Source of the DNA: Candidatus Omnitrophota bacterium
GTDB lineage: Bacteria > Omnitrophota > Gorgyraeia > Zapsychrales > Zapsychraceae
DNA: 47,499 nt
NCBI GenBank assembly: GCA_020053475.1
Contig: JAGVNC010000030.1
Location: forward strand, 1 to 47,499
Direction of reading: 5' to 3'
In this document: piece by piece, positions 14,652 to 16,766 of the stretch
How positions within the stretch are numbered: position 1 is the stretch's first letter
Layout of the letters: every line of letters starts with the position of its first letter
Notes under the pieces: generated by a model
The model's input: the letters and a program-made list of their open reading frames with translations, nothing else
Databases searched by the model: none
Told to the model about the DNA's origin: nothing
Position numbers and translations under genes: made by a program

Positions 14652-15794
14652 TTAAACTTTTAAGGCGTTTGCCAAATCGTCGATCAAGTCCTGGGCGTCT
14701 TCGATGCCGCAAGACACGCGGATAGTTTCTTTCGTGATCCCCGAGGCCTTGAGCGCCGCCTCACCCATCGAGGCATGGCTCATGAGCCACGGATGTTCGA
14801 TGAGCGATTCGACCCCGCCCAACGATTCAGCCAATGAAAAATATTTCAATTTAGTAAATAATTGATCACAGGACACTTTCTTCGTATCCAGCTCAAACGC
14901 TAACATGCCGCCAAACCCTTTCATTTGTTTTTTGATTAGTTTCTGCTGCGGATGGCTTTTGAGCCCAGGATAATACACTTTCTTTACGTTCTTATGGCCC
15001 TCGAGGAATTCGGCGATCGCTAGCGCGTTGGCCTGATGCGCTTCCATGCGTTGGACCAATGTCTTGACCCCGCGTAGAACAAGCCAAGCATCAAACGGGG
15101 ATTCGGAAACGCCCAACGCATTGACTAAAAAGCGGCCGCGCTGTTCCAAGTCTTTGTTCCCGTAAATAATGGCGCCGCCGACCACATCGCTGTGGCCATT
15201 AATGTATTTTGTCGTCGAATGCACGACAATATCCGCGCCGAACTCGAACGGCTGTTGGAAATACGGCGAAAGGAATGTATTGTCCACGACCGACAATAGT
15301 TTTTTCTTTTTGGCAATGGCAATCGTCCCTTCCAAATCCACAATATTGAGCAGAGGATTCGACGGGGTTTCGATCCAGATCATTTTGGTGTCTTTATTCA
15401 CCGCTTTGGCCACCGCGTCAAGATCGCGCATATTGACAAACGAAAACCGGATGCCCAGGGGCGTAAACACTTGGGTAAACAACCGGTACGTCCCGCCATA
15501 AATATCATCCCCTGTCACAACGTGATCGCCGGCTTTAAGGAAAAACAACACCGCCGTAATCGCGGCCATGCCAGTTGCGGTGGCCGAGCAACCCACACCC
15601 CCTTCAAGCTCGGCGATGTTCTCTTCGAGCGCCGTGCGGGTCGGATTACCGCTGCGAGTATAATCGTAGCCCTTGTTCTTCCCTAACGCGTCAAAATAAA
15701 ATGTCGACGTAGGATAAATCGGCGTTGTCACCGAATTGTAGCTTTTATCTTTATAAACGCCGGTGTGGACTGTTTTGGTGCGAAGTTTGGCCAT
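14652..15794 (-). CDS. Cystathionine gamma-synthase / beta-lyase (PLP-dependent)
   Basis: This 380-residue Cys/Met metabolism PLP enzyme belongs to the MetB/MetC/MGL family. Visible motifs are YDYTRSGNPTR near residue 44, the PLP-stacking region SATATGMAAITAVLFFL, TPSNPLLNIVDL, and the lysine motif VHSTTKYINGHSDVVGGAII that holds the Schiff-base Lys. The C-terminal FSLAESLGGVESLIEHP and IRVSCGIEDAQDLIDDL are typical. MetB and MetC cannot be separated by eye. An RBS (AAAGGAG) precedes the ATG. It lies downstream of the SAM-II riboswitch and the ygfZ-like gene, consistent with methionine synthesis controlled by SAM. Confidence 0.93.
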   Translation of the reverse strand: MAKLRTKTVHTGVYKDKSYNSVTTPIYPTSTFYFDALGKNKGYDYTRSGNPTRTALEENIAELEGGVGCSATATGMAAITAVLFFLKAGDHVVTGDDIYGGTYRLFTQVFTPLGIRFSFVNMRDLDAVAKAVNKDTKMIWIETPSNPLLNIVDLEGTIAIAKKKKLLSVVDNTFLSPYFQQPFEFGADIVVHSTTKYINGHSDVVGGAIIYGNKDLEQRGRFLVNALGVSESPFDAWLVLRGVKTLVQRMEAHQANALAIAEFLEGHKNVKKVYYPGLKSHPQQKLIKKQMKGFGGMLAFELDTKKVSCDQLFTKLKYFSLAESLGGVESLIEHPWLMSHASMGEAALKASGITKETIRVSCGIEDAQDLIDDLANALKV

Positions 15795-15806
15795 GGAAAA
15801 CTCCTT

Positions 15807-15949
15807 TTAAGTTCGTAGTTCAGGGTTCGCCCCGTGGAAGGCAAAGCCTTCCCGGGATTAAGTCCCCGAAATCGCAAAGCGATTTCAGGGGATAGTTCGT
15901 AGAAACTTTTGCTTTTACTCCGAACTCCCAACTACGAACTCCGAACTTA
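15807..15949. repeat. Composite inverted-repeat element with two inner hairpins
   Basis: Outer arms TTAAGTTCGTAGTTCAGGG (from 15807) and the near complement ending ACTACGAACTCCGAACTTA (to 15949) enclose two perfect or near-perfect hairpins: GGAAGGC-AAA-GCCTTCC (15836-15852) and CCCCGAAATCGC-AAA-GCGATTTCAGGGG (15864-15891). No U-tract follows on either strand. The element fills the gap between the ygfZ-like gene and metB/C and resembles miniature, non-coding mobile or REP-like elements. Confidence 0.7.
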
Positions 15950-15961
15950 TCTATATTACCA

Positions 15962-16639
15962 TCATTCCTTATTGCTGACAAAGACAAATCCCTTAACATT
16001 GCCCGTCGCCGGATCCGAAACTTTCGATGTCATCTTCCCTTTTTCTTCAAGGCTGCATTCATCTTCGCGCTTGACGACCAGTTTCCAGCTCGGCTGAGAG
16101 CGGTTGTATACTTTAGAAATCGGCTCCTGGCCGAGATAACAGCCTTTGGTAAACGATACGTGGTCCCGCATGCTCACGTTCAATAAAAGTTCATCGGTAT
16201 AATCGATTCCGTGGATCGGGATTCCGTTCGTCACCCGGAACAACCGAAATTCTTCATCAGTCACATTCGCCGTCAATGTGCGCGGTGTGGCGATGATGCG
16301 TCCTTTTTTCTGCGCAAAAACCCAATCCTGCGGGTCCACGGGGGCGTCGGCATCCAAATCAAAATAAATATTTCGGGCCGGCTGCTCGATGGTAACGCCA
16401 CTTAACTTCGCGTACCGGTTGACATGCTGTAAAACATTGTCCCCAAATGGTTTCTCGATCAAGATGACGACTTCATCATCGCTGATTTTCAGCTGATCAA
16501 ACGTCGCAATAATCCGGCCGTGGATGTTTAAAAACGCATTTTGCGGCTTGATTACCTCATTGGATGTCAATCCGTTTAAAAAAGCCGCGGCCTTGTTTCT
16601 AAATAATAAAACTGTTTTGTTCAGGGCGGATAATCGCAT
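15962..16639 (-). CDS. ygfZ: YgfZ/GcvT-like folate-binding protein
   Basis: The protein has 225 residues. The YgfZ/IBA57 signature KGCYLGQEPISKVYNR is present near residues 178-193, with the cysteine that marks the family; the N-terminal part (FLNGLTSNEVIKPQNAFLNIHGRIIATFDQLKI) matches the tetrahydrofolate-binding GcvT-like fold. In E. coli the homologue supports Fe-S enzymes such as MiaB. It is somewhat shorter than the E. coli protein. The ATG at 16639 lies only a few bases after the U-tract of the riboswitch terminator and has no Shine-Dalgarno sequence, so translation begins on a U-rich leader. It is the first gene under the SAM-II riboswitch. Confidence 0.88.
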   Translation of the reverse strand: MRLSALNKTVLLFRNKAAAFLNGLTSNEVIKPQNAFLNIHGRIIATFDQLKISDDEVVILIEKPFGDNVLQHVNRYAKLSGVTIEQPARNIYFDLDADAPVDPQDWVFAQKKGRIIATPRTLTANVTDEEFRLFRVTNGIPIHGIDYTDELLLNVSMRDHVSFTKGCYLGQEPISKVYNRSQPSWKLVVKREDECSLEEKGKMTSKVSDPATGNVKGFVFVSNKE

Positions 16640-16640
16640 A

Positions 16641-16682
16641 AAAATAAAAAACCCGACGGCTAAAAAGTTAACCTTCGGGTTG
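16641..16682 (-). terminator. Intrinsic terminator of the SAM-II riboswitch (expression platform)
   Basis: On the minus strand AACCCGAAGG (16672-16681) pairs with CCGTCGGGTT (16650-16659), with one mismatch, and is followed by TTTTTTATTTTT. The loop contains CTTTTTAGC, which is complementary to GCTAAAAG at the 3' end of the aptamer. Pairing of those two would block the terminator when SAM is absent. The terminator would cut off ygfZ and possibly metB/C. Confidence 0.88.
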
Positions 16683-16734
16683 GCCTTTTAGCACATTTAT
16701 ATAGCGGAGCAAGTCGTGTTAAATCACCGCGAGA
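16683..16734 (-). ncRNA. SAM-II riboswitch aptamer
   Basis: The RNA read from the minus strand shows the SAM-II core in order: TCGCGG, TGATTTAAC, a TTGC, a CCGC that closes P1 with GCGG (16727-16730 with 16704-16707), then ATAAATGTGCTAAAAGG. The same blocks in the same order and spacing make up the known 52-nt SAM-II (SAM-alpha) aptamer, which folds as a pseudoknot around S-adenosylmethionine. A promoter puts the transcription start at its 5' end and an intrinsic terminator follows directly. The regulated genes are the ygfZ-like gene and a cystathionine synthase/lyase, a fitting target. Confidence 0.9.
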
Positions 16735-16737
16735 GTT

Positions 16738-16766
16738 AATTTACCATCAACCTTAGAGACTGTCAA
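16738..16766 (-). promoter_or_regulatory. Promoter of the SAM-II leader
   Basis: On the minus strand TTGACA (16761-16766), a 17-base spacer and TAAATT (16738-16743) place the transcription start within a few bases of the 5' end of the SAM-II aptamer. Confidence 0.75.

Follow-up and report, generated by a model that had tools for sequence, protein, structure and literature searches.

A probable transcriptional SAM-II riboswitch ahead of a ygfZ-cystathionine gamma-synthase operon in the phylum Omnitrophota

SAM-II riboswitches have been reported from Proteobacteria, Bacteroidetes and marine metagenomes (PMC1273637, PMC2258182, PMC2864571). The SAM_alpha family of alphaproteobacterial metA and metZ (RF00521) combines a pseudoknot with a promoter just upstream and, in many members, a terminator (PMC1273637). 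The metX-type elements, represented by PDB 2QWY and its marine Pelagibacter and SAR86 relatives, include the metX riboswitch, classed among the rare SAM-II that act on translation (PMC6061858); those of Pelagibacter have a terminator, the loop of which carries UUUAGC. The helix P2a is 5 bp long in 60% of published SAM-II and 2 bp long in metX, and SAM-V resembles SAM-II in its short P2a and in a virtually identical SAM site (PMC6061858). Tandem SAM-II riboswitches are known from 44 published cases, some of which contain a terminator after each aptamer (PMC9481103). The literature that we searched held no report joining Omnitrophota or Omnitrophica with riboswitches or SAM-II. The class described below is known, and the lineage appears to be new to that literature.

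The window analysed here is a stretch of 47,499 nucleotides from an Omnitrophota genome (GCA_020053475.1, contig JAGVNC010000030.1). Inspection of its minus strand at 16641-16766 identified TTGACA-N17-TAAATT followed by the core of a SAM-II pseudoknot and then by an intrinsic terminator, so that all the promoter, aptamer and terminator elements listed in an earlier note on this DNA are present (Table 1). After TAAATT the strand reads AACTCTC-GCGG-TGATTTAAC-ACGAC-TTGC-T-CCGC-TATATAAATGT-GCTAA-AAGGCC, followed by the hairpin and the U tract up to the ATG of the first gene; the further named elements ATAAATGTGCTAAAAGG and the terminator end TTTTTTATTTTT were also found. The -35 and -10 hexamers match the promoter consensus at ten of twelve positions. 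P1 and P2b (UUGC with GC(U)AA) form the H-type pseudoknot expected of SAM-II, and the segment UGAUUUAAC is identical to the GAUUUAA third strand located beside P1 in that class.

The element shares UGAUUUAAC in L1, the UUGC/GCUAA pseudoknot, the AUAAAUGU-type linker and P1 with metX-type SAM-II, as well as the terminator with those of Pelagibacter. It differs from the metX type in containing one nucleotide, not two, between UUGC and the P1 3' strand, in lacking an extra base between AAAUGU and GCUAAA, and in its weak P2a. The pseudoknot topology, the upstream promoter and the terminator also resemble SAM_alpha, whereas the L1 and loop sequences differ. SAM-V is distinguished by a P3 hairpin, a Shine-Dalgarno sequence in P2a and action on translation, whereas the window shows no hairpin in its 11-nt linker and has a terminator; Rfam scans of the window gave no match to SAM-V. 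The window also had no match to the SAM-II family with long loops (RF01726) up to E 10, and it contains a single aptamer. RF01726 is instead resembled by second tandem elements in three relatives (G296, G315 and G189), and the published tandem arrangement by the pairs of G315, G296 and G068.

Table 1 Features of the riboswitch locus and its operon in the window
Feature	Position	Strand	Basis or remark
-35 hexamer TTGACA	16761..16766	-	sequence; promoter consensus match
-10 hexamer TAAATT	16738..16743	-	17-nt spacer, TG ahead of -10
SAM-II aptamer	16681..16732	-	model R2, match positions 1-52
P1 5' strand GCGG	16727..16730	-	sequence; P1 covariation over 23 SAM-II sequences
L1 TGATTTAAC, third strand of P2 triplex	16718..16726	-	same as metX-type SAM-II
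P2b 5' strand TTGC	16709..16712	-	invariant among aligned relatives
P1 3' strand CCGC	16704..16707	-	sequence; covariation
P2b 3' strand GC(U)AA	16688..16692	-	invariant among aligned relatives
Predicted antiterminator 5' arm GCTAAAAGG, overlapping P2 3' strand	16684..16692	-	folding, shuffles
Intrinsic terminator hairpin, 7 + 6 bp, -16 kcal/mol	16650..16681	-	folding
Predicted antiterminator 3' arm CTTTTTAGC, terminator loop + inner 3' arm	16659..16667	-	folding
Remaining U tract, adjoining ygfZ start codon	16640..16649	-	sequence
YgfZ/CAF17-like gene, first of operon	15962..16639	-	TIGR03317 6e-11, 42.6 bits, under cut-off 49
Putative second promoter, TTGTCA-N17-TAATAT, between ygfZ and CGS	15953..15981	-	consensus match only, 9/12
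Cystathionine gamma-synthase/lyase (CGS; Cys/Met metabolism PLP enzyme), second gene	14652..15794	-	only such enzyme detected in genome

Rfam at its own cut-offs gave no match in the window. At a lax threshold, the full RF00521 model matched 16668-16740 with 18.9 bits where 36 are required, and nowhere else in the 2.03-Mb genome did RF00521 score higher. The gathering cut-off of 36 bits serves annotation and does not describe the structure of the class. SAM-II elements of Pelagibacter scored 26.2-28.2 bits, and three marine loci with Pelagibacter/SAR86-like elements had no Rfam match at cut-off. Because Pelagibacter SAM-II are themselves excluded, we did not take the RF00521 cut-off as defining SAM-II. 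The Rfam check proposed in the earlier note thus fell short at a threshold that known SAM-II also miss, and the outcome that would have spoken against its reading, no significant match to any SAM riboswitch model, was obtained against the Rfam cut-offs only.

Two covariance models that exclude the window gave significant matches. A core-pattern scan of species genomes yielded mostly Pelagibacteraceae and SAR86 elements; model R1 comprises 19 Pelagibacteraceae/SAR86 and similar SAM-II RNAs and no sequence of the window's phylum, and model R2 comprises relatives from the phylum together with outgroups. The window element reached 30.3 bits with R1 (E 4e-6; runner-up 11 bits) and 64.9 bits with R2 (E 6e-16 over the 2.03-Mb genome); the next best matches within the window had 10-11 bits. 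The scores of R2 over 384 genomes of the phylum leave a gap between 44.2 bits and a noise ceiling of 28.6 bits. In a control set from a different phylum, none of 301 genomes matched at E 0.001.

Homologues were found in the family, class and phylum of the window, which supports both the SAM-II identity and the extension of the class beyond its published groups that the earlier note had anticipated. R1, run over 364 genomes of the class, recovered a coherent group of two genomes from the window's family (G315 and G271) and six from another family (f10), with elements close to AGCGG-NGAUUUGANGCGUA-UUGC-U-CCGC-UUAAUAAAUGU-GCUAAAAAGC. R2 placed 13 genomes of the phylum above the gap; three of them (G066, G084 and G068) belong to another class and were absent from its training set. 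Together with G409 and G419, detected by R1, and G385 (60 bits), 16 of the sampled phylum genomes contain the element. Most homologues carry terminators and promoters of the TTGACA type, with the -35 hexamer upstream of the element as in the window. The L1 triplex strand varies at four loci (L196, L194, L204 and L218), which have GAGUU or AAUUU instead of GAUUU.

The downstream genes of the homologues belong largely to sulfur metabolism. The element precedes metY, encoding O-acetylhomoserine sulfhydrylase, in eight genomes (G315, G271, G119, G409, G033, G273, G419 and G068), metK, encoding methionine adenosyltransferase, in G296 (542 bits against a cut-off of 309), and a cysteine-synthase-like (cysK-like) gene in G304. 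Other or not clearly identified genes follow it in G066, G084, G189 and G385. Five genomes have tandem pairs: G296, where two SAM-II with one terminator each lie ahead of metK (L204 1386-1555), G315 (L186 1318-1552), G068 (L218 1501-1668), G189 (L201 1360-1554) and G304 (L219), the second element of the last being recognised by eye. The second elements of G296, G315 and G189 scored 41.3, 34 and 30.4 bits on RF01726, the cut-off of which is 44.

Several other matches were rejected. An exact-pattern scan of the 384 phylum genomes returned the window's own genome and three chance-looking strings. The exact pattern was too strict, because relatives have GATTTGA or GAGTTGA, and its apparent restriction to a single genome was therefore misleading. 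None of eight pattern matches in viral contigs was convincing. Matches of the species-genome scan in Firestonebacteria, Planctomycetota, Bacteroidetes, Anaerolineae, TM6 and similar groups had either no P1 pairing or no linker and were attributed to chance, and several R1 matches in phylum genomes (e.g. L188, L192 and L193) lacked a terminator or lay inside coding sequence.

The operon downstream of the window element begins with ygfZ, which the earlier note had rightly called not a usual methionine gene. However, a methionine-type gene is present in the operon, because the second gene encodes a cystathionine gamma-synthase/lyase. The element is thus located upstream of a methionine gene, as expected of SAM-II and as seen in the relatives. 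The two activities, synthase and lyase, are not separable from sequence, and repression by SAM makes more sense for the synthase. CGS begins 167 bp past ygfZ, has 73-86% identity to close homologues in relatives, and is the only member of the Cys/Met PLP enzyme superfamily detected in the genome. The YgfZ orthologues of eleven other family members are 49-63% identical, and most share the position of the start codon; none of the ten with readable upstream sequence, one stretch of which is short, has a SAM-II upstream of ygfZ. The contig fits its assembly, because close homologues of both its CGS and its ygfZ occur within the family and order of the genome. The metK gene of the genome lies elsewhere, and its examined flank gave no match to Rfam SAM riboswitches. 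CGS may have its own promoter, as suggested by the promoter-like sequence ahead of it. The gap also contains an inverted-repeat element (15795-15961, minus strand; -70.6 kcal/mol, z -6.25), and the 63-nt two-hairpin core of this repeat occurs in about 40 genomic copies of 82-95% identity, similar to REP/BIME elements. Riboswitch control of CGS can only be presumed, because the gap holds this strong hairpin repeat and the promoter-like site.

The terminator and the antiterminator of the window element are mutually exclusive in folding, and the antiterminator uses the 3' strand of the aptamer, as expected of a transcription-terminating riboswitch. The terminator consists of 7 bp, a mismatch, 6 bp and a 4-nt loop (AACCCGA-A-GGUUAA-CUUU-UUAGCC-G-UCGGGUU). 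The earlier note had placed the complement of the aptamer's 3' end in the terminator loop. This complement is present, but it spans the loop and the inner 3' arm, because the terminator is longer than that note implied. It amounts to seven contiguous bases, or nine with one G-U pair; taken by itself, the uninterrupted 7-nt complement of the window carries little weight (43 of 1000 shuffles). Six relatives of family f10 (G119, G409, G033, G273, G019 and G419) have complements of 9-11 nt to the P2 3' strand in the terminator region, each matched in 0-3 of 1000 shuffles. When the nascent RNA was folded before the terminator 3' arm is complete, 7.98 of the 8 P2-strand bases were in the antiterminator, compared to a shuffle mean of 1.46, and none of 500 shuffles reached this value. 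Among five relatives folded likewise, three form an antiterminator as the window does and G315 nearly does so; G271 has no predicted antiterminator. The folding of the window together with its homologues thus supports the switching logic that the earlier note had outlined. Folding of the complete leader gave the terminator as the minimum even without the pseudoknot, and masking the P2 strand to mimic SAM-bound RNA left this minimum unchanged. Because equilibrium favours the terminator even without the pseudoknot, the switch must be kinetic. Between the terminator U tract and the ygfZ start codon (16639-16650), there is no Shine-Dalgarno-like sequence.

The window RNA is very probably a transcriptional SAM OFF switch of the SAM-II class positioned ahead of the ygfZ-CGS operon. 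We base this reading on homology, covariation in the family, architecture and mutually exclusive folds, and from these we infer that the RNA binds SAM, that it terminates transcription and that read-through extends into CGS. RNA polymerase would start just downstream of TAAATT. SAM bound as the aptamer emerges would hold GCUAAAAGG in the P2 pseudoknot and triplex and leave CUUUUUAGC free, so that the AACCCGA...UCGGGUU hairpin and the U tract would halt transcription ahead of ygfZ. When SAM is scarce, GCUAAAAGG would pair with CUUUUUAGC, with AACC-CGAA-GGUU nested inside. The pairing of GCUAAAAG with CUUUUUAGC would be the antiterminator pairing that governs read-through. The antiterminator would consume the 5' arm and the inner 3' arm of the terminator and thereby allow transcription into ygfZ, which probably continues into CGS. 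Against this reading stand the failure of any Rfam model to pass its cut-off, the weak P2a of the window, the absence of SAM-II from the ygfZ orthologues of the family, the equilibrium preference for the terminator even without the pseudoknot, and G271 without a predicted antiterminator.

The pairing of P2a bears on whether the element still functions. In a hand-made table of 23 SAM-II sequences, which leans towards the expected structure because it was aligned to that structure by eye, P1 pairs 1-4 are formed in all 23 with at most three pair types, and P2a pairs 1-2 in 22 with three to four types, including C-G, U-G, U-A, G-C and A-U. This sequence covariation provides good support for P2a as a predicted pseudoknot helix, one that neither R1 nor R2 used. 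In the expected register, the window forms one of three standard P2a pairs, a C-G, and has A x C at the next position; its P2a is the weakest of the 23, whereas the other 22 sequences have two to three pairs each. The element could accordingly be read as a decayed SAM-II, homologous to functional ones, in which P2a was lost and the terminator attenuates constitutively or SAM sensing is gone; a first gene outside methionine metabolism that lacks the element in family relatives, and the equilibrium preference for the terminator, would fit such decay. However, L1, P2b, P1, the promoter, the terminator and the antiterminator, the last unmatched by shuffles, are all intact and mutually consistent. 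A P2a of 2 bp suffices in metX SAM-II (PMC6061858), and the window could form two C-G pairs if an A is bulged out. We consider decay improbable.

Even less credible is a SAM-II fold with a changed ligand, such as SAH or another adenosyl compound, matched to the unusual YgfZ/CAF17-like first gene and reflected in the altered P2a, since the P2b/L1 core is unchanged from metX-type SAM-II and such uridines contact the sulfonium in the virtually identical site of SAM-V (PMC6061858). A chance assembly of promoter, terminator and SAM-II-like string, which the sub-threshold Rfam score and the exact pattern without a convincing match elsewhere in the phylum might suggest, is ruled out for practical purposes by the R2 E-value, the unmatched control genomes and the homologues ahead of methionine genes in the same phylum.

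The homologues accompanying the window's transcriptional SAM-II indicate that a deep, uncultivated phylum uses this class in at least two of its own classes, often in tandem, ahead of metY or metK. Some members of this phylum may rely on RNA for methionine and SAM feedback. None of the phylum's SAM-II tested here reaches an Rfam cut-off, and a retrained model would annotate them. The differing sulfur-gene targets among relatives (CGS, metY, metK and cysK-like) offer a ready system in which to trace riboswitch movement between genes. We speculate, with considerable doubt, that these RNAs form an unrecognised SAM-II clade in at least two classes of the phylum, below every Rfam cut-off, of which the window member lost most of P2a and sits on ygfZ-CGS instead of metY. 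The amount of a folate-dependent Fe-S protein, presumed to aid radical-SAM enzymes, would then likewise depend on the SAM level. Outside this phylum, a Spirochaetales metagenome-assembled genome has a SAM-II at 36.1 bits, just above the Rfam cut-off (L099 3632-3707); it lies directly ahead of a Shine-Dalgarno sequence and ATG and is therefore of the translational sort.
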